Assembly: GCF_041765605.1 (NCBI RefSeq)
Contig: NZ_CP168900.1
Span: 822,001 to 886,000, forward strand
Direction of reading: 5' to 3'
Length of the DNA stretch: 64,000 nucleotides
DNA from: Listeria monocytogenes
GTDB taxonomy: Bacteria > Bacillota > Bacilli > Lactobacillales > Listeriaceae
The first letter of the stretch is position 1; each line of letters opens with the position of its first letter. Position numbers and translations under genes: made by a program. Positions 10,292 through 33,371 of this stretch are shown here, one piece after another. The notes below the pieces were generated by a model, which was not told the origin of the DNA, did no database searches, and saw only the letters and a program-made list of their open reading frames with translations.

Positions 10292-11386
10292 GTGACAGAA
10301 ACAATTATTCGGTTTGAAAACGTAACAAAACAATTTGATAATGATCCACCAGTGCTTGACAATGTCAGCTTTGAAATAGAAAAAGGGAAGTTTTATACTT
10401 TGCTCGGCCCATCTGGTTGCGGGAAAACAACTATTTTGCGCTTAATAGCTGGATTTTTAGAAGCTTCAGAAGGACAAATTTTCCTTGGAGAAAAAGTAAT
10501 TAACCAAATTCCAGCGAACAAACGACCGGTAAATACCGTTTTCCAAGATTATGCTTTATTTCCACATTTAAATGTGTATGAAAATGTGGCTTTTGGACTT
10601 CGTATTAAAAAGTTGAAAAAAGAAGCAATTGACGAAAAAGTAAAAGAAGCACTGCGCTTTGTTAACTTAAAAGGCTACGAAAAAAGAGAAATTAGCGAAA
10701 TGTCTGGTGGACAAAGACAACGTGTCGCGATTGCTCGGGCAATTGTCAATGAACCAGAAGTTATTTTGCTTGATGAACCACTGTCAGCGCTTGATTTAAA
10801 ACTACGTACGGAAATGCAATATGAATTGCGCGATTTGCAAAAGCGTCTTGGAATTACGTTTATTTTTGTGACGCATGATCAAGAAGAAGCACTTGCGATG
10901 AGTGATGAAATTTTTGTGTTAAATAAAGGCGAAATTCAACAAAGTGGTACGCCAATTGATATTTACGACGAGCCAATTAATAAATTTGTCGCAGATTTTA
11001 TCGGCGAATCGAACATTGTTAATGGCAAAATGATACAAGATTTCGAAGTGGAATTTGTGGAAAGACGTTTTGAATGTGTCGACCAAGGTTTCCGCCCAAA
11101 TGAAGTCGTGGAAGTAGTTATCCGTCCGGAAGATTTAGAGATTACTTCGGCTGAAAAAGGTCAACTGCAAGTAACCGTAGACTGGATGCTTTTCCGTGGT
11201 GTGCATTATGAAGTAGGTTGTATCGACACTGATGGAAATGAATGGCTTGTTCACACAACAAGAAAAGTTCGTGTGGGTGATAAGATTGGCTTAGCGTTTG
11301 AACCAGAGGCAATTCATGTTATGCGTCTTGGGGAAACGGAGGAAGAATTCGATAAGCGGCTTGATAGCTACGATGAGGTGCAGTAA
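10292..11386 (+). CDS. potA: Spermidine/putrescine ABC transporter, ATP-binding protein
   Basis: The protein is 364 residues. Residues 1-235 are an ABC nucleotide-binding domain with Walker [11 protein letters not shown]-loop FQDYALFPH, signature [14 protein letters not shown], Walker [13 protein letters not shown] and switch His in FVTHDQEEA. The rest is a TOBE-type regulatory domain, as in PotA/MalK importers. It energises polyamine import with PotB, PotC and PotD. The ribosome site GGGAGG lies only three bases before an ATG at 10286 but nine before the GTG at 10292, so the GTG was chosen. The stop overlaps the potB start (TAATG). Confidence 0.93.
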
Positions 11387-12195
11387 TGAATAGACGCACC
11401 CGTACAGTTTATCTTGTTCCTTATGTACTTTGGATTTTACTTTTTGTAGTCGCACCGATTTTATTGATTGTGTATTATTCATTTTTTGATGTTGATGGCA
11501 ATTTTACTGTAGATAATTATATTCATTTTTTCACCCCTGTCTATTTAAAAATGACAGCTAGTTCGTTCTGGTACGCGTTTTTAATTACTGTTTTTACGTT
11601 GTTGATTTCTTATCCAACGGCGTATCTTTTAACGAAATTAAAGCATAAACAATTGTGGTTATTACTCATTATTTTACCGACTTGGATTAATTTGCTGCTT
11701 AAAGCGTATGCCTTTATTGGGATTTTTGGGACATACGGGGCGGCGAATCAATTTTTGGAAATACTTGGAATTGGCTCGAAACAGATTTTATTTACGGATT
11801 TTAGTTTCTTATTTGTATCGACCTATATTTTTATTCCGTTTATGATATTACCGATTTTTAATGCAATTGAGGAAATTAATCCGACGTTGATTCAAGCGTC
11901 GCGTGATTTAGGCGCATCGAGTTTGACGACATTTAGACGGGTGATTTTCCCACTCACTGCTGATGGCGTGAAATCAGGGTGTCAGGCTGTTTTTATTCCA
12001 GCGCTATCACTCTTTATGATTACACGATTAATTGCAGGAAACCGTGTGATTACGCTCGGAACAGCGATTGAAGAACATTTTCTAGTAACGCAAGACTGGG
12101 GAATGGGTTCGACAATTGGCGTATTTTTAATTATTGCGATGATTTTAATTATGTTCCTAACAGGTTCGAAAAAGAAAAGAGGTGCGCGTAAATGA
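11386..12195 (+). CDS. potB: Spermidine/putrescine ABC transporter permease
   Basis: A 269-residue membrane protein with six predicted membrane segments and the EAA loop EINPTLIQASRDLGASSLTTF (about 165-185), which docks on the ATPase. The fold is the type I importer permease found in PotB. It overlaps potA by one base and potC by four (ATGA), which implies tight translational coupling in the pot operon. Confidence 0.93.
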   Translation: MNRRTRTVYLVPYVLWILLFVVAPILLIVYYSFFDVDGNFTVDNYIHFFTPVYLKMTASSFWYAFLITVFTLLISYPTAYLLTKLKHKQLWLLLIILPTWINLLLKAYAFIGIFGTYGAANQFLEILGIGSKQILFTDFSFLFVSTYIFIPFMILPIFNAIEEINPTLIQASRDLGASSLTTFRRVIFPLTADGVKSGCQAVFIPALSLFMITRLIAGNRVITLGTAIEEHFLVTQDWGMGSTIGVFLIIAMILIMFLTGSKKKRGARK

Positions 12196-12998
12196 AGAAA
12201 AGTAAATGGGGTACGATTTATTTAGTGCTTGTTTTTGTGATTTTATATGCGCCGATTTTCTATTTGATTTTTTACTCGTTTAATAAAGGCGGCACGATGC
12301 ATAATTTTAGTGGCTTTACGCTTGGCTATTATAAAGAAGTTTTCCAAGATACGCGCCTACTAATTATTGTTTTAAATACGTTTGTAATTGCGCTGCTTTC
12401 TTCGGTGATTGCAACTATTATTGGGGTTTGCGGGGCGCTGGCGATTAAATTTATGCCAAAACCTTTTGCGAAAAACTCGCTTTTAAGTTTGAATAATGTG
12501 TTGATTGTTAGCCCGGACGTTATTATCGGTGCTAGTTTCTTGATTTTTTTCACGATTTTAGGCGTAAAATTAGGTTTTATTTCCGTCTTAGTTTCGCATA
12601 TTGCTTTTAGTATTCCGATTGTCGTATTGATGATTTTGCCGAAATTACAAGAAATGAGCCCGACGTTAATGGATGCGGCGCGAGACTTAGGTGCAAGCCA
12701 GTGGCAAGTTCTTTCAAAAGTTATTTTGCCGTATATTATGCCGGGCGTTTTAGCTGGATTTTTCATGGCATTAACGTACTCGCTAGATGATTTTGCGGTG
12801 ACTTTCTTTGTAACCGGAAACGGCTTCTCAACTTTAGCGGTAGAAATTTATTCCCGAGCAAGACAAGGGATTTCGCTTTCTATCAATGCTTTATCGACAC
12901 TGATTTTCCTATTCACGATTATTCTCGTGATCGGTTATTACTTTATCAACCAACGTAATACAAGTAAAAATATTCGGACGGGGGCGACGAAAGAATGA
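12192..12998 (+). CDS. potC: Spermidine/putrescine ABC transporter permease
   Basis: The second permease half, 268 residues, six membrane segments, EAA loop EMSPTLMDAARDLGASQWQVL at about 155-175. It pairs with PotB to form the polyamine channel. The start overlaps the potB stop by four bases and its own stop overlaps the potD start by four bases. Confidence 0.93.
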   Translation: MKKSKWGTIYLVLVFVILYAPIFYLIFYSFNKGGTMHNFSGFTLGYYKEVFQDTRLLIIVLNTFVIALLSSVIATIIGVCGALAIKFMPKPFAKNSLLSLNNVLIVSPDVIIGASFLIFFTILGVKLGFISVLVSHIAFSIPIVVLMILPKLQEMSPTLMDAARDLGASQWQVLSKVILPYIMPGVLAGFFMALTYSLDDFAVTFFVTGNGFSTLAVEIYSRARQGISLSINALSTLIFLFTIILVIGYYFINQRNTSKNIRTGATKE

Positions 12999-14068
12999 AG
13001 CAACTGCTGAAAATTTTTGTACCAGTCATTGTCGTGGCACTCCTAATGATGCTACTTGCAACAACGATGAACCGTTCTGAGGGCTACGCTGGGAGCAATA
13101 CGCTGACAATTTATAACTGGGGCGATTACATTGACCCATCGCTCATTACTAAATTTGAAAAAGAAACAGGCATCAAGGTCATTTACCAAACATTTGATTC
13201 TAATGAAGCGATGATGACGAAAATTGAGCAAGGTGGAACGACCTTTGATATTGCGGTGCCAAGTGATTACGCGATTAGCAAAATGAAGGAAGAAAATTTG
13301 CTGATTCCACTTGATCATTCCAAATTACCAAATGAAAAATACCTTGATCCGCGTTTTATGGACTTGTCGTTTGATGACGATAATAAATATTCGATGCCGT
13401 ATTTCTGGGGAACGCTTGGCATTATTTATAATAAAGAGATGTTCCCGAACAAAAATTTCGATACGTGGAATGCGCTATTTGATCCCGAATTAAAAAACCA
13501 AATTTTGCTGATTGATGGGGCGCGTGAAGTCATGGGGCTTGGGTTGAATAGTCTCGGTTACTCACTGAACGATACGAATAAAGCTCACCTACAAGCTGCC
13601 AGAGACAAGCTAGAAACGATGACACCGAATGTTAAAGCAATTGTTGGCGATGAGATTAAACTTCTCATGGCGGACAATGAAGCAGGTGTCGCGGTTACTT
13701 TCTCCGGAGAAGCCGCGGAAATGCTCAGTGAAAATGAAGATTTAGAATATGTTATTCCAAAAGACGGCTCCAATTTATGGTTCGATAACATGGTCATTCC
13801 AAAAACGGCAAAAAATGTCGATGGCGCGCATAAATTTATTAACTTCATGCTAAAACCAGAAAATGCCGCAATTAACGCCGAATATGTTGGCTATGCAACA
13901 CCAAACGAAAAAGCCGTCCAATTGTTACCAAAAGAAATTTCGAGTGATGAACGTTTTTATCCGGATATGGACGAATTAAATAATTTAGAAGTATATGATA
14001 ACCTCGGTAAACGAATGCTGTCGTATTATAATGAATTGTTTTTGGAGTTTAAGATGTACCGGAAATAA
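12995..14068 (+). CDS. potD: Spermidine/putrescine-binding protein
   Basis: A 357-residue periplasmic-binding-type protein. An N-terminal hydrophobic segment (about 5-24, VPVIVVALLMMLLATTM) is followed by the mature start SNTLTIYNWGDYIDPSLI, the classic PotD/PotF opening, and then two lobes with YQTFDSNEAMMTKI and VPSDYAISKM ligand-pocket segments. Binding proteins of Gram-positive bacteria are usually lipoproteins, but there is no lipobox cysteine here. The N-terminal segment therefore probably serves as an uncleaved or signal-peptidase-I anchor. It is the last gene of the operon and is followed by a strong terminator. Confidence 0.93.
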   Translation: MKQLLKIFVPVIVVALLMMLLATTMNRSEGYAGSNTLTIYNWGDYIDPSLITKFEKETGIKVIYQTFDSNEAMMTKIEQGGTTFDIAVPSDYAISKMKEENLLIPLDHSKLPNEKYLDPRFMDLSFDDDNKYSMPYFWGTLGIIYNKEMFPNKNFDTWNALFDPELKNQILLIDGAREVMGLGLNSLGYSLNDTNKAHLQAARDKLETMTPNVKAIVGDEIKLLMADNEAGVAVTFSGEAAEMLSENEDLEYVIPKDGSNLWFDNMVIPKTAKNVDGAHKFINFMLKPENAAINAEYVGYATPNEKAVQLLPKEISSDERFYPDMDELNNLEVYDNLGKRMLSYYNELFLEFKMYRK

Positions 14069-14156
14069 TTGAAAATCTTGGTACCAAAATACATTAAGTC
14101 AACAAAAAAATCAGAGGAATAAGCTAACATTTTTACTTCTGGATTCCCAAAATCAA

Positions 14157-14197
14157 ACCAAAAAAAGTGACGAAATTGTCGCTTTTTTTGGTTTTTT
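14157..14197 (+). terminator. Intrinsic terminator of the pot operon
   Basis: A 15-base-pair stem (ACCAAAAAAAGTGAC with GTCGCTTTTTTTGGT, one G-U pair) and a T tail, about 90 bases after potD. It marks the last clearly core sequence before the accessory region. Confidence 0.9.
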
Positions 14198-14332
14198 TAA
14201 AGAGAATTCATAATATAAGTTTTTGATAGATAGGCTAATTAAGAGGAAAACAAGCACTTCTCATTTAAAAGAGATATTTTTTTACTATAAATAATATAAA
14301 TGATATATTATCTATGTTAAGGGGGGATTAAC

Positions 14333-15829
14333 TTGGTACCTTTTGAATTATCTAGTTTATTTTTATCAAAAACTCAGCTAGATAAGCTGTTTATTTTGAA
14401 GCAATTAGAGTCAGGGATGACTACATTTAGCAGCCTTGAGATGAAACTAAAAATTTCTAAACGGAAAATTAAAGAGATTGTATTGAGTTTGATAAAAGAG
14501 ATGAATGTAATTCGGTCAGACCAACGAAATGAATTATCTGTGGATAGAGAAATTATACAATTTAAATTAAAACTTAAAGATAACGAATATGTAGAGTTGA
14601 TTAATGATTTTAGAGTAAAATATTTACTAGAATCAAGTTTATATAGAGTACTGTTATTCGTTCTTGAAAAAAGAACTTTTAGTATTGTGATAATGGCAAA
14701 TGATTTATCATATAGTGAATCATATACATATAAATTATTTGGTAAGTTAAAGCAATTTTTTAAACATATGAATTATGGTATTCAATTAAAAAAAGAAAAT
14801 GCTTTTTTTTTCAAATTGGATGGAAACGAGTCTACCATAAGAATTCTCCATTATTTAGCCGTATCTGTTGCTTCTAAAGGAAATCAATGGTTATTTACAT
14901 CAATTTCTCAAAATGAAATAATGAATACACAATTTTATATTGATTCACACAGATATAAGAGATTGTCCCCAGTTGGTAAGAATCGCGTAAACTCTATTTT
15001 GGCAGTTTATGAGTTAGCTTTAAAGAATAAATACAAAATAACAAATTTAAATACAGAAGTTAGTGAATTAGGCAATGCCATTAATAGAGAAATAGAAATT
15101 AATTTATATCTAAAATATTTAAAAGAAGAAGTTGTAAATAATGATACGCAGCTTCAAGAAGAAATCATTCATTTGGCTTTTCTGATTAATTATTTTTCAC
15201 AAGAAGTAAGAACAGATGATGAAAAAGAAATTTTAGGAAAACATATACTCTCATTGACAAATAATTCGATAGCAAAAAATTGCGATAACATACTAAAATT
15301 GATAAATAGACGATACGAACTATCGGAAGAGACTAATAATATATTGCTTTATAGTCTATGTAACCGGTTTGTTGTTATTTATTATTTGGGATTATATAAA
15401 TTTATGCCATTATATAATGTTCCTCCATTACTTGGTGATAAAGAATGTTTTATAGGAAAATGTATTGATAACAGCCTCACTGATTATAAACACGATGCGT
15501 CTTACGAAAAAGTTAAGTATAGCTTTACGCAAGTAATCAGTGGGTATTTAAATTTAGAGCTTTCTTTAAGTCAGAAAATTTATGTTGAATTCTTTCATCG
15601 ACCAGAATATAAATCGATTATTGAAAACGCAATTAAACATAATTACAATCAAAAGGTACTTCAGATTACAAATAACTACCTAGAAGCAGATATAGTGATT
15701 TCAGATACACATGGGTATGATAAGAAAAAATTTTTCTATTTTAGAGATGTATTTGATCAAGGTTCATGGGAAAAATTAGGGTTATATTTAAACCAGGTTA
15801 TTAGAGATGAAATTTTAGAAACAAATTAA
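14333..15829 (+). CDS. Mga family transcriptional regulator
   Basis: A 498-residue protein with the plan of Mga/AtxA virulence regulators: an N-terminal winged helix (about 12-60, FLSKTQLDKLFILKQLESG, KLKISKRKIKEIVLSLI), a second Mga-type helix-turn-helix (about 100-140, VLEKRTFSIVIMANDLSYSESYTYKLF), then a long helical region where PRD-like modules and an EIIB-like C-terminal part (LQITNNYLEADIVISDT, about 445-460) would lie. These regulators often answer to PTS sugar phosphorylation and control surface proteins. Start TTG after AAGGGGGG. The base composition is markedly more AT-rich than the flanking pot genes, which fits acquisition. The likeliest target is the LPXTG gene 1.2 kb downstream (inference). 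Confidence 0.8.
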   Translation: MVPFELSSLFLSKTQLDKLFILKQLESGMTTFSSLEMKLKISKRKIKEIVLSLIKEMNVIRSDQRNELSVDREIIQFKLKLKDNEYVELINDFRVKYLLESSLYRVLLFVLEKRTFSIVIMANDLSYSESYTYKLFGKLKQFFKHMNYGIQLKKENAFFFKLDGNESTIRILHYLAVSVASKGNQWLFTSISQNEIMNTQFYIDSHRYKRLSPVGKNRVNSILAVYELALKNKYKITNLNTEVSELGNAINREIEINLYLKYLKEEVVNNDTQLQEEIIHLAFLINYFSQEVRTDDEKEILGKHILSLTNNSIAKNCDNILKLINRRYELSEETNNILLYSLCNRFVVIYYLGLYKFMPLYNVPPLLGDKECFIGKCIDNSLTDYKHDASYEKVKYSFTQVISGYLNLELSLSQKIYVEFFHRPEYKSIIENAIKHNYNQKVLQITNNYLEADIVISDTHGYDKKKFFYFRDVFDQGSWEKLGLYLNQVIRDEILETN

Positions 15830-15874
15830 AGGTATTCCTGAGTGAAGCTTATTTTCGCTTAGGAATACCTTTTT
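15828..15874. terminator. Bidirectional terminator, Mga regulator/recombinase remnant
   Basis: AAAGGTATTCCT pairs with AGGAATACCTTTTT, extended by GAAGC/GCTT inside. It overlaps the last codons of the convergent recombinase remnant. Confidence 0.85.
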
Positions 15875-16419
15875 CTTTGTAAATAGTTATACACGGTAGG
15901 TCTAGAGATATTGTATTTTTTGGCTAGTTCAACTATGGATAAATTTGTATTCAAATAGTCATTAATCACTTCATAAATATATTTATTTTCTACAGGTCTA
16001 CCCAATACTTTTCCTTTTTCTTTAGCAGCATCCATACCTGAAAGAACACGTTCCCGAATGAGTTCAGCTTCTATTTCGGCAAAAGCACTCATAATCGTAA
16101 AGAAAAATTTACCCATTGAAGTACTTGTATCAATATTATTTTGAATACTGATAAAATTGATATCTCTATCATTAAAATGTTCCATCAACCTAAGTAAATG
16201 TTTGGTTCCACGTGATAGTCAATCTAATTTAAAGATAACAAATGTATCTCCAGGCTCTAATGCATTTAATGCTTTGGAAAGTTCTTTTCTTTGTATGTTT
16301 CTTCCGCTATCAAATTCGATATAAATTTTATGGCAACCATACCTCTTTAGTGCATTTAATTGTGAGTCCAATTGTTGATGTACTGTACTTACACGGGCAT
16401 ACCCAATGGTTTTCATCAT
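15859..16419 (-). pseudogene. Serine recombinase (resolvase/invertase) broken by one stop codon
   Basis: Read through, this is a 186-residue resolvase: MKTIGYARVSTVHQQLDSQL carries the nucleophilic Ser of the YxRVST motif, then YIEFDSGRNIQRKEL, GDTFVIFKLD-stop-LSRGTKHLL, ISIQNNIDTSTSMGKFFFTIMSAFAEIEAELIRER, and a C-terminal helix-turn-helix LSIVELAKKYNISRPTVYNYLQRK. The single defect is TGA at 16219-16221 (plus strand tca). In relatives this position is Arg (FKLDRLSR), so a CGA-to-TGA change explains it; the frame is otherwise intact on both sides. GGAGGAG precedes the start. It is probably the recent loss of a Tn3/Tn552-type or DNA-invertase enzyme. The second half could still restart at an internal ATG, but would lack the catalytic serine. 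Confidence 0.9.
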
Positions 16420-16455
16420 TCTCCTCCTAAATTAAAAGCTTATATGTTATTTTAA

Positions 16456-16484
16456 AAAAAAATACAGGAAAAATGTATTTTTTT
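16456..16484. repeat. Perfect inverted repeat upstream of the recombinase remnant
   Basis: Eleven-base arms AAAAAAATACA and TGTATTTTTTT flank a seven-base centre. It lies 37 bases upstream of the recombinase start, where res-like or operator sites usually lie. A T-run at its end also allows a terminator role on the plus strand. Confidence 0.6.
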
Positions 16485-16699
16485 CATTATCCTTGTTGCG
16501 CTAAAGTTCACGAAATGTGGATAATCAGAAAACGCTATATTATGATACTATATTGCTACTAACAAGGCTGTAATCTATTCTAATATATAATTTACACTTG
16601 AAAAGTATAAAAAAACACCCTAGTTTATCACAAATCAAAGCACTTAGATGACAAAATTACACATAAATTGAAGTGTAAGGAAATCATTTGATAGTAGGT

Positions 16700-16825
16700 A
16701 TGGAAACAAGTGAACAAGTTCTTAAAAAGGCAATTAGAAAATATTTTCATGAAGAAAGTATTACCTTAGAATCGTTTAAAGAGGTTTGGTTGATGCGTGA
16801 TGAGACCATCATCAATCTAGAGTGA
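16700..16825 (+). CDS. Short ORF of unknown function (41 codons)
   Basis: METSEQVLKK opens a 41-residue reading frame ending DETIINLE, highly charged and predicted helical. A TTG four codons upstream (16688) is a possible alternative start; GTAAGGAAATC lies before it. It sits in the otherwise gene-free 570 bases between the recombinase remnant and the LPXTG gene. It may be the stub of a larger decayed gene rather than a functional peptide. An eight-base inverted pair TTACACTT (16592-16599) and AAGTGTAA (16671-16678) lies just upstream. Confidence 0.3.
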   Translation: METSEQVLKKAIRKYFHEESITLESFKEVWLMRDETIINLE

Positions 16826-16986
16826 GTCAATAGCAATTTAAAAACTGGCGAATACTTGAAGTTATATTTGGATGAATACTAAAGAACATGTGTTACACTT
16901 CCTAATCAAAAAAAAGAATTGTAAGTTATATGAGTATTTACGTTTATTCATATACATTCAAGAATTAAAGAAATGGGGATTAATGA

Positions 16987-18807
16987 ATGAAATTAATGAA
17001 GTATATTTGTGTATGTTTATTGATGGGACAGATTTTTGTAACGCCTGTGCTGTCATATGCAGAGGAAACAGATCAAAGTACAGGAAACAATGTATCAGAA
17101 GGTAACAAAATCAATTCTTTAACTGATAGCGAAGATACTAGCAATCAATCAGGGGAACTTGATGAAGAAGATATAATAGATGGTAATGTGAAAAATAAGA
17201 ATGCCATTAATCAATCAGAGGATACCAATAAAGAAAATAAAGCAATGTTAAAAGTAAAAGATTCTACGTTGTATGTAGGAGACAAATGGGTATCAGAAGA
17301 CAACTTTTTCTCAGCAACGGATAAAGACGGAAATAAATTAACAGTCGGTAATCTAGAGGTCGAAGGAACAGTAGACACAAGCACAGCAGGAGTATATGAA
17401 ATCACATACAAAAATGGAAGCTTGAGCGAAATCGCAAAAGTAAAAGTTGAGGCTAAGCAAACTGGAAGTATTACACTTCGATATGTAGACACCTATGGAA
17501 ATCTTGTTAAAGATCCTGTAGATGGGTGGGAACCAGAGCCACAAACAATTATTGGAAATATTGGAGAATCTGCAGACGGAGACCTTTATTGGATTGAAAT
17601 GAGGGGATGGCAAAAGATAAGTAATCTTCCTGAGGGCATAAAATATGAAGCGTACCCGCAAACTTATGATATCGTGTATGACAACATAGGAGTGATTTAT
17701 ATATCTTATAAAGACTCTTTGGGAAATGAGTTAAAACCTAAGGAGAGAAATACCGATTATGTATCAAAGTTTGATTGGAGTTTAGAAGAGCTCCCTCAGC
17801 CCGTGCCTTATGAAGTGATGCCGATTGATATTGAGGGGTATAAAAACACTGGAGTAGAAGGAGATCCCGCATCAGGTAGTATGGAGTTTTCCGAACCCAT
17901 AAAAAGAATTACGTTTATATATGATAAGATAGACAACAGTGCAATCAATGTCCACGATTCTATAATTTATACGGGAGATAATTGGGGTCCTATAGATAAT
18001 TTCGATGGTGCATTTGATAAACAAGGAAATGTAATAGATTTTCAAAATATAAAAGTAGAAGGTTTTGTCAATTCTAATCAAGCAGGCATATACGAAGTGA
18101 AATATAGTTATGAAGGTGTTACAAGTTTGGCGAAGATTACAGTGAAAGAGAATAAAACAAACTTGAAAGTAAAGGACGCTACATTATCTGTAGGAGATAA
18201 GTGGTCACCCAAAGATAATTTGGTTTTCGCAACAGATAAAGATGGTAATGAATTAACAGTAGGCAATCTAGAGGTCGAGGGTACGGTGGATACAAGTAAA
18301 GCAGGCGTGTATGAAGTTACGTATAAAAACGGAAACTTGAGTGAAACCGCGAAAATCACTGTAAAAGATCTCAATGAAAATGATCAAACATCCTTAGAAA
18401 TAAAAGACTCAACATTGTATGTAGGAGATAAGTGGGAAGCAACCGACAACTTTATTTCAGCGACAGATAAAGATGGGAATACTTTGAAAGTAACTGATCT
18501 TCAAATAGAAGGTGTAGTAAATACAAAAAAAGCTGGCATCTATGAAGTAACATACAGAAACGGCAACTTAAGCAAAATAGCTAAAGTAACAGTAAAAGAA
18601 AAACCATCTATCAGTACTTCTAATGGTGATCAAGGTGGAAAACAATCTCAAGATAAAGGAAGTAAGAATAAACAAGATACTAACAATACTAACAGCTCCT
18701 TACCAAAAACTGGAGAACAATCAACGTTCTATTTATCACTAATGGGTATTATACTTCTTTTAAGTGGCTTAGTCATGATGTATCGAAGAGTTAAACTTAA
18801 AAAATAA
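16987..18807 (+). CDS. LPXTG cell-wall-anchored surface protein with Ig-like repeats
   Basis: A 606-residue surface protein: signal peptide about 1-25 (cut near SYA|EETD), an acidic low-complexity linker to about 85, four copies of a 68-residue bacterial Ig-like (group 3) repeat at about 88-155, 320-387, 393-460 and 470-537, and a distinct MucBP-like region (about 158-316) between copies one and two. After a Ser/Asn/Lys-rich spacer comes the sorting signal: LPKTG at 572-576, a hydrophobic segment and the basic tail YRRVKLKK. It should be attached to peptidoglycan by sortase A and act outside the cell, perhaps in adhesion. Repeats 1, 3 and 4 share VGDKW, DNxxxATDKDGN and VYE(V/I)TY(K/R)NG, while repeat 2 is divergent. 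The ribosome site TGGGGAT is weak. It may be under the nearby Mga regulator (inference). Confidence 0.88.
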   Translation: MKLMKYICVCLLMGQIFVTPVLSYAEETDQSTGNNVSEGNKINSLTDSEDTSNQSGELDEEDIIDGNVKNKNAINQSEDTNKENKAMLKVKDSTLYVGDKWVSEDNFFSATDKDGNKLTVGNLEVEGTVDTSTAGVYEITYKNGSLSEIAKVKVEAKQTGSITLRYVDTYGNLVKDPVDGWEPEPQTIIGNIGESADGDLYWIEMRGWQKISNLPEGIKYEAYPQTYDIVYDNIGVIYISYKDSLGNELKPKERNTDYVSKFDWSLEELPQPVPYEVMPIDIEGYKNTGVEGDPASGSMEFSEPIKRITFIYDKIDNSAINVHDSIIYTGDNWGPIDNFDGAFDKQGNVIDFQNIKVEGFVNSNQAGIYEVKYSYEGVTSLAKITVKENKTNLKVKDATLSVGDKWSPKDNLVFATDKDGNELTVGNLEVEGTVDTSKAGVYEVTYKNGNLSETAKITVKDLNENDQTSLEIKDSTLYVGDKWEATDNFISATDKDGNTLKVTDLQIEGVVNTKKAGIYEVTYRNGNLSKIAKVTVKEKPSISTSNGDQGGKQSQDKGSKNKQDTNNTNSSLPKTGEQSTFYLSLMGIILLLSGLVMMYRRVKLKK

Positions 18808-18870
18808 GTAGCTAGGTAAATGTATAATAACTTTATTTTAAAAAATCAAATTCATAAGCATACTTTTTGG

Positions 18871-18909
18871 CAGGGAAGATTTAATTACTAAAATCTTCCC
18901 TGTTTTTTG
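18871..18909 (+). terminator. Intrinsic terminator of the LPXTG gene
   Basis: CAGGGAAGATTTTA-type stem (CAGGGAAGATTTAA with TAAAATCTTCCCTG) followed by a run of T, 64 bases after the stop codon. Confidence 0.9.
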
Positions 18910-18939
18910 TTTTTTTGAGAACTAAATGGATGTTATTTA

Positions 18940-19110
18940 TAGAAAGGAGTTACGTTAGATGGATAATTATTCTGAGAAAGAGTGCATTTCCTAACAAATG
19001 CACTTGATTTATATACCTTTAGCACAAGATATCTTAACAAAAAATGTAACGAGTTGTTAGGTATGTTAGGTAATGAAAGTAACAAAAGGAGTGACTGAAG
19101 AATAAAACTT
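18940..19110 (+). pseudogene. Decayed coding sequence, identity unclear
   Basis: After an AAAGGAG at about 18942 a short start MDNYSEKECIS stops at once. The next bases read LIYIPLAQDILTKNVTSC in one frame and ELLGMLGNESNKRSD in another, the look of a frameshifted C-terminus of a larger protein. Because it lies directly before the DUF3173/integrase remnants, a decayed mobile-element gene is likely, but no family could be fixed. Confidence 0.35.
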
Positions 19111-19137
19111 TTGAAGTAATGATAAATCAATTAGATT

Positions 19138-19278
19138 ATGATTCATAAAGTGTCTAAGCTTCATCAAGCGAGTCTGATGATAATAGAAGTAAAAGAGTAT
19201 TTATCAACTGTTAGGGGAATAATCTTTTATTCTAATCATCAGGTAGGTATCGTTCTTGCAAGGTTTATTGAGAAATAA
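19138..19278 (+). pseudogene. DUF3173-like remnant (mobile element partner of integrase)
   Basis: A 46-codon frame reads MIHKVSKLHQASLMIIEVKE, then YLSTVRGIIFYSNHQVGIVL and ends ARFIEK. The order HQAS-(helix)-EYL-FYSN-VG-V matches my recollection of DUF3173 proteins, which are short DNA-binding proteins encoded just before the integrase of many firmicute integrative conjugative elements. The normal N-terminal helix seems lost or out of frame (MINQLDYDS reads in another frame at 19119). The assignment is by eye. Confidence 0.5.
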
Positions 19279-19350
19279 TTTGGATACAAATAATCAAGTA
19301 AGTATTTTACTAGAATTAGGCTTATTTTATGTTTATTGTGAGGAGAATAT

Positions 19351-19687
19351 ATGGAGAAACCTACTAATATTTATAAAGACAAAAAAAGAATAAGTGGTTC
19401 TATTGAGCTTATTTAGATAAGGATAAAAATGATAATAAGTATAGAAAAGACTAAACGGGGGTTTTTCCACGCAAAAAGAGGCGAAGTAGACATGTATTAA
19501 ATCAATTAAGCCACATTATTTGGTACATTTCCATGTTGCGATGTTAGTTGAAATGAATATTCGGTTATTGATGATTCAAGAACAATTGTGACATGCGAAA
19601 ATCCAAATTCTGTTAGGAACTATGAATTATTTATATCCCAAAGCAGATGACCGAGTGGTAGACGAAATTGATAAGTTATTTGGTTAA
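19351..19687 (+). pseudogene. Tyrosine integrase remnant with large internal deletion
   Basis: It starts MEKPTNIYKDKK after AGGAGAATAT, the opening of an integrase arm-binding domain, continued after frameshifts by LDKDKNDNKYRKD and TKRGFFHAKRGEVDM. Most of the middle is missing. From 19532 a single frame reads HVAMLVEMNIRLLMIQEQL, stop, HAKIQILLGTMNYLYPKADD, then RVVDEIDKLFG and a terminal stop at 19685-19687. This is the C-terminal catalytic end of a tyrosine recombinase: the LGHA box has become L-stop-HA by a GGA-to-TGA change, and the Arg of the usual LRHTHVAM box is not seen. The gene is clearly dead. It shows that an integrative element once occupied this locus. Confidence 0.85.
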
Positions 19688-19741
19688 AATATTCTACCAG
19701 AAAAACTTTGAAAACAAGACTTCCTATCAAATAATTAGATT

Positions 19742-19775
19742 AGACTCTTGTATTCTAATACAAGAGTCTTTTTTA
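19742..19775. terminator. Perfect hairpin between the integrase remnant and the SDR gene
   Basis: AGACTCTTGTATT pairs perfectly with AATACAAGAGTCT around a two-base centre, followed by TTTTTT. It can end transcripts of both the integrase remnant and the convergent SDR gene. Confidence 0.85.
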
Positions 19776-19782
19776 CAGTTCC

Positions 19783-20556
19783 TTATTTTTGATTAAATGA
19801 GGCTTGGTTTGCGTAAGAAAACAAATTTTCAGTTAAAGTTAGGGAGAATGTTGTCCTATCAATCATGCCGACAATTTTGTCGCTGTCATACAAATCTAAT
19901 AAGAATTGGGCCATTTCATCACTTGTATGATAATTATTAAATTTTTTGTCATAGTCATAGTCGCTTACATTATTTGCTTTTTGTCCAAATTCGGTTTTGG
20001 TAGCAGCTGGTGCTAATACTTTTGCTTGAAGTGGCGAATCGCTTTCTCGTAATTCCAAACTTAATGCTTCAGTAAAGGAACTAACATAGAATTTACTAGC
20101 ACAATAAGTTGCTGCGGCAGGAACCATCGTATAGCCGCCTGCTGAAGAAACATTAATTAGTTGTGTACCTGATTGGTCATGATACTTTCTAACATACAAG
20201 ACTGATAGAACTGTTAATGCTTCAATATTCAAATGAAGAAGTTGTAAAGTCTTAGTTAGGCTCTGGTTTTTAACTTCACTATAATATCCTAGACCAGCAT
20301 TATTTATCCATGTTTCAATGAAATAAAGATCCAATTCAGAAAATAATTTCTCTAAACGGTCTATTTTTGTTAAATCAATCGCTTTGATTAGGACTTCAAT
20401 TTCGGGTACTTCCTTCTCAATCTCATTTTTCAACTTCAACAAATTAGCTTCTCTTCTGGCAATTAAGATGAGATTTTTTTTGTGTTTTGCAAACTGTTTA
20501 GCGGTAGCATAGCCAATACCGGAACTCGCGCCTGTGATGACAACATATTTTTTCAT
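19783..20556 (-). CDS. Short-chain dehydrogenase/reductase
   Basis: A 257-residue SDR: MKKYVVITGASSGIGYATAKQ carries the TGxxxGIG cofactor motif, NNAG occurs near residue 83 (WINNAGLGYY), the catalytic Ser is in INVSSAGGY and YCASKFY supplies the Tyr-x-x-x-Lys pair. It reduces or oxidises an unknown carbonyl or alcohol with NAD(P). The ATG at 20556 follows TAGGAGG; the longer upstream reading overlaps that ribosome site. A TTGACA-N19-TATAGT promoter of MerR-controlled type lies just upstream, and the co-directional MerR gene is the probable regulator. The base composition is AT-rich compared with core genes around it. Confidence 0.85.
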   Translation of the reverse strand: MKKYVVITGASSGIGYATAKQFAKHKKNLILIARREANLLKLKNEIEKEVPEIEVLIKAIDLTKIDRLEKLFSELDLYFIETWINNAGLGYYSEVKNQSLTKTLQLLHLNIEALTVLSVLYVRKYHDQSGTQLINVSSAGGYTMVPAAATYCASKFYVSSFTEALSLELRESDSPLQAKVLAPAATKTEFGQKANNVSDYDYDKKFNNYHTSDEMAQFLLDLYDSDKIVGMIDRTTFSLTLTENLFSYANQASFNQK

Positions 20557-20588
20557 GGCAATTCCTCCTAGCATTTTAGTATGAATCA

Positions 20589-20619
20589 ACTATAAATGCT
20601 GGAGTTAACACCATGTCAA
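20589..20619 (-). promoter_or_regulatory. MerR-type promoter of the SDR gene
   Basis: TTGACA and TATAGT are separated by 19 bases rather than 17, the hallmark of promoters that need a MerR protein to twist the spacer. The spacer reads TGGTGTTAACTCCAGCATT. A near copy of the spacer lies at the promoter on the other side of the merR gene. Confidence 0.75.
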
Positions 20620-20640
20620 CCCTTCTTATACGAGCAGAAA

Positions 20641-21012
20641 TTATTTAATATCTCGTTCACTCAACATTTCCTTATAAATATCTATTTTATTTAGTAGAAA
20701 CTGGGTATATAGCTCAGTTTCTTCCCTTTTCTCAACTAAAATATCATATTGCCTATATAACAAAGTCATACGTTGCTCGATGGTTTGATCTCCCAGATAC
20801 CGAAGTTTTGCATATTCCTTAATATTTTTAATTGGCATGCCTGTCTGTTTTAATTTTTTTATGAAATTAATCCAAGTAATATCCGAACTATCATAAATTC
20901 TACGGTTGATCTCATTTCTTTTTGGTAAAATTAGTTTTTCTTTTTCATAATATCGTAATGTATCAATTGATAACTCCACTTCTTTTGAAAATGCACCAAT
21001 TGTGTAATTCAC
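20641..21012 (-). CDS. MerR family transcriptional regulator
   Basis: A 123-residue MerR protein: winged helix at about 1-70 (YTIGAFSKEVELSIDTLRYYEKEKLI, then ITWINFIKKLKQTGMPIKNI) and a C-terminal dimerising coiled coil. There are no metal-binding cysteines, so a small-molecule or redox cue is more likely than a metal (inference). The start is GTG after GAGGAGATG. It sits between two promoters with nearly identical 19-base spacers, so it probably controls both the SDR gene and the truncated divergent gene. Confidence 0.85.
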   Translation of the reverse strand: MNYTIGAFSKEVELSIDTLRYYEKEKLILPKRNEINRRIYDSSDITWINFIKKLKQTGMPIKNIKEYAKLRYLGDQTIEQRMTLLYRQYDILVEKREETELYTQFLLNKIDIYKEMLSERDIK

Positions 21013-21035
21013 TTGTATTCATCTCCTCTTTTAAA

Positions 21036-21066
21036 TGGATATGGTGTTAAGTCCAGCATGCTACAT
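21036..21066 (+). promoter_or_regulatory. Second MerR-type promoter/operator
   Basis: TGGATA, a 19-base spacer TGGTGTTAAGTCCAGCATG and CTACAT mirror the SDR promoter: 16 of the first 18 spacer bases or more match. It points toward the truncated ORF at 21086 and lies just upstream of the divergent merR gene. Confidence 0.6.
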
Positions 21067-21085
21067 AAAAAGGAGCGGGGAAAGG

Positions 21086-21148
21086 ATGAGTGAAACGAAT
21101 ACAATTCTTACTGAATATCGTTCTAGAAGACAATTTTCAAATTTATAG
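21086..21148 (+). pseudogene. Truncated start of a gene next to merR (20 codons)
   Basis: An ATG after AAAAGGAGC opens MSETNTILTEYRSRRQFSNL and then stops at TAG. The opening resembles nitroreductase-type proteins (ILxxRSxRxF), but that is a guess from few residues. What follows to 21300 carries no coding frame. It is most likely the stub of a gene divergent from merR, cut by the event that joined the accessory region to the carbonic anhydrase gene. Confidence 0.5.
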
Positions 21149-21326
21149 TATAATGTTCTAAACTGGATATTTCCTGTTTATGATGGACCGAAAATAAAGC
21201 TACCAGTATCTTTCAGCAGGTTCACGCGAGAGTCACAACACGAACATTAAGCATATAACTTGTGAAATAGATCAGCTATCCGCTAAAATAATGTTACGCA
21301 ATTTTTTTCGAAAAGGAGAAATGGTT

Positions 21327-22028
21327 ATGACTAAGGAGAAAGTGTTATGGGGTTACGATGAGAAGACTGGGCCAGAAATGTGGGGGCATATCTGCTCTGA
21401 CTTTGAAATCGCACATACTGGAAAGGCACAATCGCCGGTAGATATTGAACAAGCTGACGTTGTGAAATTAAAACCATCAACAATGAAATTTTACTATAAA
21501 GAAACAGACTATACGATTAGAAGAATTGAGCAATCGGTGCATGTTTTTCCGCATGACAAAGAACAAGGGTTACGCTTTAACGGCGAGTATTATCCGCTTG
21601 TATCATTCCATGCACATATTCCGGCTGAGCATTTGCTTGACGGTTATATATATCCGATTGAATGGCATTTTGTTCATGAAAAACCAGACGGCACAACACT
21701 TGTTATGAGTGCTTGGATGGAAATTGATAATACAAACAATGTCGAATTCAAAGATTTACCAACCTATTTCCCAGAAGTGTTCGCTGATTTTGAAACAGAA
21801 CGGGAAATTACTTTGGATGTAAATGAATTTATGCCAGAAGAACGTGTTTTCTATACATACCAAGGTTCACGGACGACACCACCAACCGTGGAAGGCGTAA
21901 CTTGGATCGTGTTAAAAAATGCGAAGACACTTGGTCAAGAAGATTTCACTGAATTTGAAAAAGCAATTGGTAATACAAGTCGACCAGTACAAGATTTAAA
22001 TGGTCGTGAAATTACTTTTTACAATTAA
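21327..22028 (+). CDS. Alpha-class carbonic anhydrase
   Basis: A 233-residue alpha-carbonic anhydrase that interconverts CO2 and bicarbonate. Zinc ligands are visible as two His in SFHAHIPAEHL (about 93-95) and the third in IEWHFVHEKPDG (about 115). The opening WGYDEKTGPEMWG and QSPVDI motifs also fit. Most bacterial alpha-class enzymes are exported, but there is no signal peptide here, so it should act in the cytoplasm. The start at 21327 follows AAAGGAG at eight bases; an in-frame ATG at 21321 is too close. TTGTGA-N18-TAAAAT at 21261-21290 is a likely promoter. Confidence 0.93.
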   Translation: MTKEKVLWGYDEKTGPEMWGHICSDFEIAHTGKAQSPVDIEQADVVKLKPSTMKFYYKETDYTIRRIEQSVHVFPHDKEQGLRFNGEYYPLVSFHAHIPAEHLLDGYIYPIEWHFVHEKPDGTTLVMSAWMEIDNTNNVEFKDLPTYFPEVFADFETEREITLDVNEFMPEERVFYTYQGSRTTPPTVEGVTWIVLKNAKTLGQEDFTEFEKAIGNTSRPVQDLNGREITFYN

Positions 22029-29697: not shown

Positions 29698-30255
29698 TTG
29701 ATTCGACAAGCGAAAAAATCAGACGCGCCAAAAATTGCGCCCCTTTTACTAGTTATATGGAAAGATATGGAATTACCTATTTTAGAAGTAGAGACGGAAG
29801 AAGCGATTACAAATGCGCTAATCGAAGCGATTCAGACAGAAGATTATCGTTATAGTTATAGACATCTGCATGTCTATGAGAAAGATGGAGATATAGCAGG
29901 AGTTCTGGCAGGGTATCCTGGTGAAATCGAACCTGAAATCGACCGTGCTTGGAATGCGATTGCGAAGAAACACGGCATCACATACGACGAACCAATTTTT
30001 GTTGATAAAGAAACATTCCCTGGCGAATGGTACTTAGATTCAATCGTAACAAACGAAAAATATCGCGGTCATGGTGTTGGAACAGCGCTTCTTGCTAAAT
30101 TAACAGAAATTGCTGCAGCAGATGGTGAAAAAGTAGTAGGATTAAATTGCGACAAAGGAAACCCGCATGCTAAGCGGCTATATGAACGTTTAGGATTTCA
30201 TGTAACTGGTGAAACCACACTTAGCGGTCACGAATATGAACACATGCAAAAATAA
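29698..30255 (+). CDS. GNAT family N-acetyltransferase
   Basis: A 185-residue acetyltransferase of the Gcn5-related fold: IRQAKKSDAPKIAPLLL opening, YLDSIVTNEKYRGHGVGTALLAKL with the acetyl-CoA-binding RGHGVG (motif A), and NCDKGNPHAKRLYERLGFHVTGE, the motif-B helix ending. The acceptor is unknown. The start is TTG after GAGGATG. It lies 16 bases upstream of the lipoprotein gene and is likely co-transcribed. Confidence 0.88.
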   Translation: MIRQAKKSDAPKIAPLLLVIWKDMELPILEVETEEAITNALIEAIQTEDYRYSYRHLHVYEKDGDIAGVLAGYPGEIEPEIDRAWNAIAKKHGITYDEPIFVDKETFPGEWYLDSIVTNEKYRGHGVGTALLAKLTEIAAADGEKVVGLNCDKGNPHAKRLYERLGFHVTGETTLSGHEYEHMQK

Positions 30256-30271
30256 GAAATGAGGCCAACCA

Positions 30272-30934
30272 ATGAAAAAAATCATATTCACCGTAGTAAT
30301 GAGTTTGGTGTTAGTTCTTGCTGGATGTGCTGATGTAACCAATACAGTAAAAGTGGATAAAAAAGGGGAAGCGACCATTTCCTTTGATATCGATATTTCT
30401 TCTGTAGCAGGGATTTTCGCCTCAAGTTACTCGGATGAAGTAGAATCCAAACTGAAGGAAGCTGGATTTACAGTAGATAAAAAATCAAATACAAGCTATC
30501 ATATTGAAAAGAAACTAGATAAAAATGAAACAACGAAAAGCGATATGAAACCGGAAGATTTTGGAGTGAAAATTACTAATAGCAAAAGTTTCTTCACACA
30601 AAAAATCAAAGTAGATGCCGATATTGACATCGAAAAGATATGGAAAAAAGAAATGGCGGATGTTCCATTTCCAAAAGAAATTTTAAGCCAAGTTGATTAT
30701 ACATTTATTTTGGATTTACCAATTTCGTCAATTGGAGAGAACAATGCTAAAAGTGTGGATGGCGGGAAGCTCACTTGGGATGTGCCGCTCGACAAAAAAT
30801 CCGAAATGTATTTTGAAGTCACTGTACCAAACGTAAAAAACATTGCGATTGTTGGTGGGATTCTACTTGTCGCAATCATTGGTCTACTTATTTATCTTAT
30901 TAAAAGACATCGGAAAAAGAAAAAACAACTATAA
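30272..30934 (+). CDS. Membrane-anchored lipoprotein of unknown function
   Basis: A 220-residue protein with a lipoprotein signal peptide (lipobox VLAGC, Cys about residue 18), an extracellular domain rich in strands that opens with VTNTVKVDKKGEATISFDID, and a C-terminal membrane segment (about 189-210) with a basic tail RHRKKKKQL. A lipid anchor plus a second C-terminal anchor is the LppM/DUF3153-like layout. The function is unknown. Confidence 0.78.
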   Translation: MKKIIFTVVMSLVLVLAGCADVTNTVKVDKKGEATISFDIDISSVAGIFASSYSDEVESKLKEAGFTVDKKSNTSYHIEKKLDKNETTKSDMKPEDFGVKITNSKSFFTQKIKVDADIDIEKIWKKEMADVPFPKEILSQVDYTFILDLPISSIGENNAKSVDGGKLTWDVPLDKKSEMYFEVTVPNVKNIAIVGGILLVAIIGLLIYLIKRHRKKKKQL

Positions 30935-30973
30935 AAAAGTGTGGATCAGTTAGCTAAACTGGTCCACACTTTT
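30934..30973. terminator. Bidirectional terminator
   Basis: AAAAGTGTGGA(T)CAGTT pairs with AACTGG(T)CCACACTTTT. It serves the convergent lipoprotein and MerR genes and overlaps the merR stop. Confidence 0.88.
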
Positions 30974-31339
30974 ATTTACTGCTTGTTCTAACTCTTCGTA
31001 GCAAGCTAATTTTTTCTCGATTTTTTTAAATGCTCGGTCTAGCTCTGCTTGCCGGCGGTACATATCTTGTTGATGTTCTTTCAGTACAGCGATACGTTCG
31101 GAGACAGTACCGTCACCACCTTTAGTTAGTTCAACAATTTCTTTTTGTTTAGCAAGGGGCATTCCGGTGACGCGTAAACAAGTGAGTAGTTCAAGCCAGT
31201 GAAGGGCATCATTATCAAAAATTCGGTTATTATTTTTATCGCGTGCTAGAAAAGGGATTAATCCTTCTCGTTCATAATAGCGAATCGTATGGGCGCTTAA
31301 ACCCGTGTGTTCAGAAGCTTCTTTGATTGTTTGTTGCAC
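30950..31339 (-). CDS. MerR family regulator of the aldo-keto reductase
   Basis: A 129-residue MerR protein: winged helix opening VQQTIKEASEHTGLSAHTIRYYEREGLI, second helical hairpin with LLTCLRVTGMPLAKQKEIVEL, then a long dimer coil. It resembles AdhR, which senses aldehydes in B. subtilis; a single Cys in LACYEEL and another in LLTCLRV could be redox or aldehyde targets (inference). The start is GTG at 31339 after AGAGGTG, chosen over a longer frame. It diverges from the reductase gene, whose promoter has a 19-base spacer. Confidence 0.87.
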   Translation of the reverse strand: MQQTIKEASEHTGLSAHTIRYYEREGLIPFLARDKNNNRIFDNDALHWLELLTCLRVTGMPLAKQKEIVELTKGGDGTVSERIAVLKEHQQDMYRRQAELDRAFKKIEKKLACYEELEQAVNKSVDQFS

Positions 31340-31396
31340 TAAAATCACCTCTTTTTTTCTTAATAATAGCACCTTGAAAATCGAAAAGCCAAATGT

Positions 31397-31427
31397 TTGC
31401 CTTTGAGTATACTCTAAGGTGTATAGT
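31397..31427 (+). promoter_or_regulatory. MerR-type promoter of the aldo-keto reductase gene
   Basis: TTGCCT, a 19-base spacer TTGAGTATACTCTAAGGTG, then TATAGT. The spacer includes the dyad GAGTATACTC and CTAAGG, which resembles operators of AdhR/NmlR-type MerR regulators. Confidence 0.75.
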
Positions 31428-31459
31428 AAACGTGTTATTACTTTTAGGAGGCGGATAAA

Positions 31460-32284
31460 TTGAACTTAAAAGATACAGTAAAACTTGCAAATGGTGTAGA
31501 AATGCCCCGTTTAGGATTTGGCGTATGGAAAGTGCAAGACGGCGATGAAGCAGTAAATTCTGTTAAATGGGCGATCGAAGCTGGTTACATTAGCATTGAT
31601 ACAGCTGCTGCTTACAAAAATGAAGAAGGCGTTGGTCAAGCGATTAAAGAGTCTGGCGTTAAAAGAGAAGACTTATTCGTAACAACGAAACTTTGGAATG
31701 CGGAGCAAGGTTATGAATCCACTTTGGCTGCATTTGATGAAAGCTTACGTAAATTAGAACTTGATTATGTAGACTTATATTTAATTCACTGGCCAGTTAA
31801 AGGTAAATTCAAAGACACTTGGCGCGCTTTTGAAAAATTATATAAAGATAAACGCGTTCGCGCAATCGGCGTATGTAACTTCCACGAACATCACCTAAAA
31901 GAATTAATGGAAGACGCGGAAATTGCGCCAATGGTAAACCAAATTGAATTACATCCACAATTAACACAAGAACCGTTACGCAAATTCTGTGCTGAAAACA
32001 ACATTGTAGTAGAAGCTTGGTCTCCACTAGGTAATGGGAAATTACTCTCTAACCCAGAAATCAAAGCGATTGCCGATGCACATGGTAAATCAGTTGCACA
32101 AGTTATCTTACGTTGGGATTTACAAATCGGTGTCGTGACTATTCCGAAATCCGTTCACCAAGAACGTATTATCCAAAATGCTGATATTTTCGACTTCGAA
32201 TTAAGCGAAGAAGAAGTAGCAAAAATCAGCGGATTAAATAAAGACGAAAGAACTGGCCCAGATCCAGACAACTTTAATTTCTAA
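31460..32284 (+). CDS. Aldo/keto reductase
   Basis: A 274-residue aldo-keto reductase, a TIM barrel that reduces aldehydes with NADPH. Catalytic Asp and Tyr lie in [15 protein letters not shown], Lys in VTTKLWN and His in [20 protein letters not shown] near the end binds the cofactor phosphate. It matches the YvgN/glyoxal reductase branch. The start is TTG after AGGAGG. It is probably induced by aldehydes through the divergent MerR regulator (inference). Confidence 0.92.
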
Positions 32285-32289
32285 TAGTG

Positions 32290-32330
32290 AAAAAATCCCT
32301 TCCAGCTTATCGAACTGGAGGGGATTTTTA
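32290..32330 (+). terminator. Intrinsic terminator
   Basis: AAAAATCCCTTCCAG with CTGGAGGGGATTTTT, placed after the reductase gene. Confidence 0.88.
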
Positions 32331-32362
32331 TGCTACAATAAACTAAAAAAAGAGGTTAACAG

Positions 32363-33331
32363 ATGGACGCAAAAACAATAATAGAAAACCGCTTTCGGAA
32401 TCAGAAGTTAATACAAACTGCGTGGAGTAACTCTCCGGAAAGAATTGTTTTTCATTTTGGAGCAATGCAATCACAAAACTATGGTCAGTCGCTCTGGGCT
32501 GTTGGGAGTAGAATGACGACGCCAAGTGAAAAGGCTGTAGAGCAAGCGATTAATAATGGTGAAATTATCCGGACATGGCTTTTGCGCGGAACGATTCACT
32601 TGTTTTCAGCCAAAGATTATCACTGGATGATGGAGTTAATTGCGCCTTCCATAGATAAAATATGTAAGCCATATCGAGCGAAATTAGGCTTAACAGATGA
32701 GGTTCTTCATAAGGCTACAGAAGTCGTTTCGGAAATTGTTTCAGAACAAGCCGTTACGAGAAAAGACTTGGTGGCTCATTTAGCGACCAAAGATTTACCG
32801 AGTGCAGGGATTCCTTTTGCTCAGCTGTTAGTTTATTTAAGCTCGCGGAAAGTCATTTGTTCAGGCCCGAATGAAACTTTTAGAAATACGATGCATATTC
32901 CGGCTGATACGAATCATTTCACTCGAGAAGAAGCAATAAAAGAATTAGCCAAACGATACATCCAAAGCCATGCACCAGCTACTTTGAAAGATTTTTGTTT
33001 TTGGTCGGGATTGACTGTGAGCGATGCCAAAATAGGATTAGTAGCCATGCCTAAATTGGGCGATTATTACATAACAACATTAGCTAGAAATGACGCGGTA
33101 ACTAGTACAATTCCACTGGCTGGTTTTGATGAATGGATTATCGGCTACCGAGATCGCTCAGCCGTTTTACCGGAAATATGGCACGATGAAATTATGACGA
33201 AAAATGGGATTTTCAGACCGGCGATTATCACGGAGGGCAAAGTAGTCGGGAAATGGGAAAAACCAAAGAAACGTGCTGAATTAGACGGAGATTTCTGGGA
33301 CCGTTACATCCAGTTTCGAAATATGCTATAG
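32363..33331 (+). CDS. Winged-helix DNA-binding protein, AlkZ/YcaQ-like
   Basis: A 322-residue protein of the HTH_42 family, which includes the DNA glycosylases AlkZ and YcaQ. Recognisable text: AMQSQNYGQSLWAVGSRM near residue 35 (the QxQ-type catalytic region of the family), IIRTWLLRGTIHLFSAKDYHWM and AGFDEWIIGYRDRS near the C-terminus. It may repair bulky or crosslinked bases, but many members remain untested. It forms a single unit between the reductase terminator and mvaA. Confidence 0.75.
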   Translation: MDAKTIIENRFRNQKLIQTAWSNSPERIVFHFGAMQSQNYGQSLWAVGSRMTTPSEKAVEQAINNGEIIRTWLLRGTIHLFSAKDYHWMMELIAPSIDKICKPYRAKLGLTDEVLHKATEVVSEIVSEQAVTRKDLVAHLATKDLPSAGIPFAQLLVYLSSRKVICSGPNETFRNTMHIPADTNHFTREEAIKELAKRYIQSHAPATLKDFCFWSGLTVSDAKIGLVAMPKLGDYYITTLARNDAVTSTIPLAGFDEWIIGYRDRSAVLPEIWHDEIMTKNGIFRPAIITEGKVVGKWEKPKKRAELDGDFWDRYIQFRNML

Positions 33332-33371
33332 TCAAGTAGATGGATAAATTTTAATTTGAGGTGATAAAGCT

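Follow-up and report, generated by a model that had tools for sequence, protein, structure and literature searches.

What is the AT-rich DNA that lies between potD and the carbonic anhydrase gene (which we take to be lmo0811) in a Listeria monocytogenes chromosome, and why is an open surface protein gene found there among broken recombination genes? The window, i.e., the whole stretch of 64,000 nucleotides that we analysed (positions 822001-886000 of contig C1 of G000, a Listeria genome of 2.98 Mb), carries at this place an insert of low GC content: 0.26-0.30 across 14.0-17.0 kb and 0.36 over the gene of an LPXTG surface protein, against 0.38-0.40 in the upstream pot genes and at least 0.375 from 21.0 kb on. 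An earlier note had singled out this AT-rich insert, correctly, and had read it as a degraded integrative element. We consider this probable for most of the insert: the best explanation is an element that integrated at potD and lost its transfer machinery, with a regulator and a surface protein left as cargo. This is because empty and occupied sites exist, attachment-like (att-like) repeats occur at the edges, the left end is common to other inserts, shreds of DUF3173 and integrase genes persist, and a full relative is present in another Listeria genome, G024. A single element seems unlikely, since the insert looks like at least two layers.

Empty and occupied sites at the end of potD

We searched the site in a genus sample of 25 Listeria genomes, G000 included, and worked it out in all but the ten more distant ones (G001, G004, G006-G010, G014, G021, G023); wider searches used a sample of 395 genomes of the order. 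The alignment to genomes with and without the insert, which the earlier note had proposed, revealed both states. The two flank matches meet, leaving an empty site, in six of the 25 genomes (G017, G018, G019, G002, G016, G020), which include the nearest to the window at 30000-34000 among the 24 other genomes (G018 with 97% identity, G019 and G017 with 95%). Others are occupied by different inserts: about 0.6 kb in G003, G022 and G005, about 4 to 7 kb in G013, G015 and G011, and about 40 kb in G024. Compared across these genomes, the end of potD has received insertions repeatedly.

In the genus search, the potD-side match ends at 14068 and the carbonic anhydrase-side match starts at 21176 or slightly later. 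The insert begins at 14069, directly after the potD stop codon, and its right edge lies around 21197, not at 21300 as first proposed. It shares its position at the 3' end of potD with the potD-specific integrative and conjugative elements (ICEs) and integrative and mobilisable elements (IMEs) of the Tn7103 and lwe0767-0796 type. The left attachment site (14047..14068, forward strand) is the end of potD itself, GTTTAAGATGTACCGGAAATAA, with the stop codon inside it, and its edge is common to the empty sites. The right attachment-like site, GTTTATGATGGACCGAAAATAA (21176..21197, forward strand), is immediately preceded by TTTCCT, like the right ends of such elements, and the same 22 bases occur in G012. 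The two sites agree at 19 of 22 bases and are a candidate pair of att direct repeats, an imperfect one with its second copy beyond a stretch carrying SDR (short-chain dehydrogenase/reductase) and MerR genes.

The left end (14069..14200, forward strand) contains a terminator-like hairpin at 14155-14194 (arms 14155-14171 and 14178-14194), which appears in the repeat listing of the window but not in its terminator list, and which had been taken for the terminator of the pot operon and thus for the left border. We compared this end with 14 post-potD sequences from other inserts; G034 and G105 are identical, as are G259 and G084, so these are rows and not independent cases. A hairpin with a T run starts 79-92 bases past potD in 12 of the 14 (86 bases in the window), and the first 150 bases past potD contain none in any of the six empty sites. 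The hairpin therefore belongs to the insert, not to the pot operon. In BLAST comparisons, the left end of the window matches G024 and G011 with 73-74% identity along some 100 bases, and positions 14026-14188 are 72.7% identical to an Enterococcus faecalis record: the conserved left end of the potD-specific elements is present in the window. An integrase was not seen in the E. faecalis record, nor in G015 or G011, and five genomes have theirs on a different contig; the left ends of all of these would belong to such elements too.

A family of integrases and its remnants in the window

The remnants of DUF3173 and integrase genes that had been reported were recovered by tblastn. The DUF3173 remnant (19135..19281, forward strand) spans 42-46 codons and matches the DUF3173 proteins of related elements. 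It is followed on the same strand (19285..19699) by remnants of a tyrosine integrase gene and by 12 bases common to the right arm of G024 (19688-19699). The integrase is reduced to N-terminal shreds and 58-71 aligned C-terminal codons (19285-19448 and 19481-19678), which are in different frames with a stop, the middle being gone. Of the whole integrase and DUF3173 genes of the potD-specific elements, the window thus has remnants only. The C terminus of the integrase is 54-60% identical in amino acids (aa) to its relatives, versus 74-98% between intact pairs, and its nonsynonymous divergence (pN) is 0.27-0.29 versus 0.01-0.17. When open reading frames (ORFs) of at least 60 aa from 14 ICE, IME and plasmid loci were searched against the insert at E 1e-3 (with surface-gene matches shown down to 1e-20), neither a relaxase nor a conjugation gene was detected. 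The ORF matches were confined to the Mga, recombinase, surface, DUF3173 and integrase genes, one weak recombinase match coming from an ORF of G294.

The full relative lies in G024, between potD and carbonic anhydrase. This ICE encodes a Rep_trans/Rol_Rep_N protein, FtsK-like and AAA_10 ATPases, a lysozyme/CHAP protein, DUF3173 (PF11372) and a tyrosine integrase, a make-up that we take to be Tn916-like, together with a serine recombinase, an Mga-type gene and a split Big_3 surface gene. Its att core is found at potD and again 116 bp past the integrase. Beyond the second att are genes that by eye resemble those of sugar metabolism and form another layer.

A search with the G024 integrase (1e-60) gave 43 matches in 41 of the 395 genomes of the order. 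Twelve are at least 66% identical, namely G024 and, in family f3, 11 genomes, among them G346, whose match covers only residues 108-385; G184 has a partial match of 61%, and the other 30 reach at most 40%. Family f3 is very likely Enterococcaceae, because the E. faecalis record shares 76% identity with potD of G034 and 79% with that of G290. In a check of 30 loci, 9 of the 12 close ones have an att core, with no more than 3 mismatches, 116-126 bp past the point where the integrase match ends, versus 0 of the 18 with integrases at most 40% identical, none of which has a copy with fewer than 5 mismatches. The check failed in G184, G294 and G346, the last having a 5-mismatch copy at +120. All 12 genomes with a close integrase have a potD gene: near the integrase and on the same strand in six (at 27-33 kb in G024, G290 and G294, at 6.3 kb in G034, G105 and G358), on another contig in five, and 314 kb away in G346. 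The elements at potD in G034, G105 and G358 are small and closely similar, with an arsenic operon, Rep_trans, DUF3173 and integrase, and are IME-like as judged by these genes. We found no description of a cross-genus potD element family in the literature that we searched in full text. In G290 and G263, the bases past the right att resemble by eye a second left end, suggesting tandem elements.

Several observations weigh against an integrated and then decayed element. The identical left ends of G259 and G084 have no hairpin, and the CTACCA repeats of 10 of the 14 other left ends are absent from that of the window. To the imperfection of the edge repeat and the position of its second copy past the SDR/MerR genes can be added that the pair at 14047 and 21176 is absent among the 20 of 23 repeat families listed, that the att pattern (at most 3 mismatches, counted per genome) is about as frequent as its reversed control, and that the element's own right att, looked for beside the integrase, was not found. 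DUF3173 has no clear loss of constraint (54-61% identity, versus 57-88% in intact pairs), and the region between recombinase and surface gene is not clearly like those of the plasmids described below. The att repeat by itself proves nothing; it is the alignment with empty sites that establishes the insertion.

The regulator, the recombinase and the surface protein

The first gene of the insert (14333..15829, forward strand) is open from a TTG start and encodes a regulator of 498 aa, which is of Mga type by its helix-turn-helix domain (PF05043, 24 bits against a cut-off of 21.1); an NCBIfam scan of the protein gave no match. A terminator-like hairpin (15828-15872) marks its end. On the reverse strand follows a small serine recombinase gene (15859..16419), broken as the earlier note had said: one in-frame stop parts it into 16419-16219 and 16188-15859 (66 aa and 109 aa), both with PF00239. 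The LPXTG gene (16987..18807, forward strand) is open, encodes 606 aa with an LPKTG anchor, and is followed by a terminator-like hairpin at 18869-18904. By eye, the N terminus of its product is signal-like; the product also has four Big_3 stretches (PF07523) and the sortase anchor (PF00746 and TIGR01167), all three families being above cut-off. A scan restricted to the middle 162 aa also gives MucBP (PF06458) above cut-off, a family not listed for the whole protein. The regulator and surface genes are open, as claimed; the gene list of the note was right in what it named and left out the open SDR and MerR genes. At E 1e-20, the genus sample yielded no full-length homologue of the LPXTG gene, only its repeat part being matched: non-self matches start at residue 254 or later, mostly at 313-320, have 33-54% identity, and lie mostly inside very long open frames.

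The recombination genes had been called dead. Both are broken, but their ages differ: going by the alignments, the integrase is an old wreck, and the damage of the recombinase is one stop. In comparisons made coarse by silent sites near saturation in most pairs, the recombinase of the window has 61-80% aa identity and a ratio of nonsynonymous to synonymous divergence (pN/pS) of 0.16-0.36, intact pairs having 63-99% and 0.04-0.33; a slight excess is seen against G024 only (0.36, versus 0.30-0.33 for intact pairs with G024). The gene is otherwise as constrained as intact ones and probably broke recently.

For the cargo, an attempt at dN/dS was blocked by Mga pairs near silent-site saturation and by the lack of a whole-gene homologue of LPXTG. 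We therefore rely on neutral simulation. At 0.17 substitutions per site, which is our reading of the integrase excess, the Mga and LPXTG genes gain on average 12-16 stops each and none of 500 runs is stop-free; at 0.01 substitutions per site, about a third remain open. The argument assumes that cargo and integrase arrived together, and on that premise it is plausible that the pair was kept by selection, because both frames are open despite the stops expected. The premise could fail if the Mga and LPXTG genes came after the death of the integrase, brought in by exchange with a different element there, and the open frames would then say nothing on selection. We think this somewhat improbable. 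Young cargo would fit a recombinase beside Mga that is nearly undamaged when the integrase is an old wreck, and also the many different inserts accreted at the potD site. However, G024 too has recombinase, Mga-type and Big_3 genes in one element with the left end, DUF3173 and integrase, and common arrival is simpler because G024 joins them.

Similar gene sets occur on plasmids of Enterococcus, where homologues have 80% aa identity to the recombinase (E. faecalis plasmid) and 41% to the Mga-type protein. On a plasmid of Enterococcus sp. LX10 (NZ_CP092785.1), convergent Mga and recombinase genes are followed by genes annotated as WxL and LPXTG, and E. faecalis LR962024.1, a record without annotation, has the same ORF layout. 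These loci resemble the window in the convergent pair adjoining WxL/LPXTG genes; they differ in being plasmid-borne, in their larger surface cluster and in their open recombinase. In pEK4L and G024, the Mga and recombinase genes share one orientation and diverge from the surface gene. A recombinase search at 1e-50 gave 57 matches in 26 of the 395 genomes. With 1.5 kb flanks, 4 of 30 recombinase loci have a clear Mga neighbour (G000, G024, G040, G053) and one more a weak match; G000 and G024 were in the Mga profile, so only G040, where the match spans two frames, and G053 are independent. Across these loci, the link between Mga and recombinase holds for the nearest recombinases only. In genus g21, all 15 genomes with a match have recombinase relatives arranged as pairs that face outward, most of them 17-19 kb apart.

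Could the recombinase have been an invertase that flipped a promoter, leaving a phase-varying surface gene now frozen by the stop? The nearest recombinases do adjoin Mga and surface genes, and the plasmid surface genes are preceded by short inverted repeats. Yet all 10 plasmid records, which are close relatives, are colinear and none is inverted (8 match the full query, the other two 96% and 88% of it), and in five comparisons the similarity of the window's intergenic region was reached by 7, 25, 53, 111 and 120 of 200 shuffles. Promoter inversion by the recombinase is not supported, and we hold it to be very improbable.

A probable second layer and the elements known at the site

The right part of the insert (19741..21175, reverse strand), which includes a short leftover ORF start near 21087, has by Pfam an SDR oxidoreductase gene (19786-20556) and a MerR regulator gene (20641-21012), both open and on the reverse strand. 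G012 has this part alone at potD and is 95% identical to the window there versus 83% at 30000-34000, which suggests a recent exchange between species. L. monocytogenes FDAARGOS_57, a chromosome-sized entry filed under plasmids and about 95% identical to the window at 22000-46000 (88% covered), carries SDR/MerR without the ICE part, in the order potD, SDR/MerR, decayed second potD end, RmrT-/RmrA-like genes, RT-Toprim gene, att, carbonic anhydrase. This part thus looks like a layer separate from the ICE-derived one. A reading of 14069-21197 as one element, in which SDR and MerR are cargo of the element itself, lying between the integrase and the right att, and the rest was lost from G012 and FDAARGOS_57, seems unlikely to us: TTTCCT before the core at 21176 is a left flank of the element type, but the att core lies at most 126 bp past the end of the integrase match in 9 of 12 close loci, leaving no room for cargo, and AAAGCT comes after the left att of G012, as it does at the carbonic anhydrase side. 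The further insert of FDAARGOS_57 (10522-15313 of the extracted locus) comprises the decayed second potD end, the RmrT/RmrA-like genes and the RT-Toprim gene (all so named by PADLOC, the last as I-C), and another att copy at its end. G015 and G011 have at potD DNA about 82% identical to its RmrT/A-like part.

Other searches added little. An Rfam scan of 13500-22000 gave no match, a tRNA search over the window found none, a sigma-70 scan gave 43 matches versus a shuffle mean of 39.0, an excess that does not inform, and no relative of the Mga or LPXTG protein was confirmed in the viral contigs searched.

Elements at this site have been published. The protein encoded by lmo0810 binds spermidine/putrescine (PMC3091722), and Tn7103, a putative IME of L. 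monocytogenes HC183 (ST119), lies between lmo0810 and lmo0811 (PMC8386393). Tn7103 is like the window in its site and in having a Big-like protein among its genes (PMC8386393). As described there, it is set apart by an InlJ-like internalin, a Pfam scan of the intact genes of the window insert giving no leucine-rich repeat family. A table footnote names an ICE, lwe0767-lwe0796, in L. welshimeri SLCC5334 (PMC3019230). Nine hotspots are reported in PMC3556495, whose main text has no term beginning lmo080 or lmo081. The arsenic IMEs of G034, G105 and G358 resemble the window in their left end, DUF3173 and integrase, with att at the integrase end, and differ in their arsenic operon and Rep_trans cargo, no surface gene being seen. 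The G024 element, which we presume to be lwe0767-lwe0796, has in common with the window the potD site, recombinase, Mga-type gene, Big_3 surface gene, DUF3173 and integrase. It differs in its conjugation genes, in its split surface gene and in the Mga-type protein (18% identity in a codon alignment, 24-26% by tblastn). On these comparisons, the window insert is a decayed new element of a kind already published at the potD site.

The comparisons above show the integration site, the family and the decay; the order of events, the regulation and the function that we infer from them are as follows. An element of a family of Listeria and, very likely, Enterococcaceae would have entered the last ~20 bases of potD by means of its tyrosine integrase, leaving the potD reading frame whole and bringing an Mga-type regulator, a small serine recombinase and an LPXTG protein with Big_3 domains. 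The transfer genes, the right end of the element and the greater part of the integrase would then have disappeared; later the recombinase would have gained its stop, and the element would now be immobile. The SDR/MerR piece beside it would be another layer at this hotspot. The LPXTG gene is most likely still switched on by the Mga-type protein and yields an adhesin-like protein of the cell wall. More tentatively, the pair formed by Mga and the Big_3/MucBP LPXTG protein may have been domesticated as a chromosomal regulator-adhesin pair after the death of an element from a Listeria-Enterococcaceae potD family that exchanges cargo such as adhesins and arsenic resistance.

These results would tie the scattered potD inserts of Listeria and of an Enterococcaceae-like family to one integrase/att family, and account for the variation of the potD spot among Listeria genomes. 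They leave the general view unchanged and may be useful when annotating accessory surface proteins of Listeria: here, the surface-protein cargo seems to have outlasted the element that delivered it.

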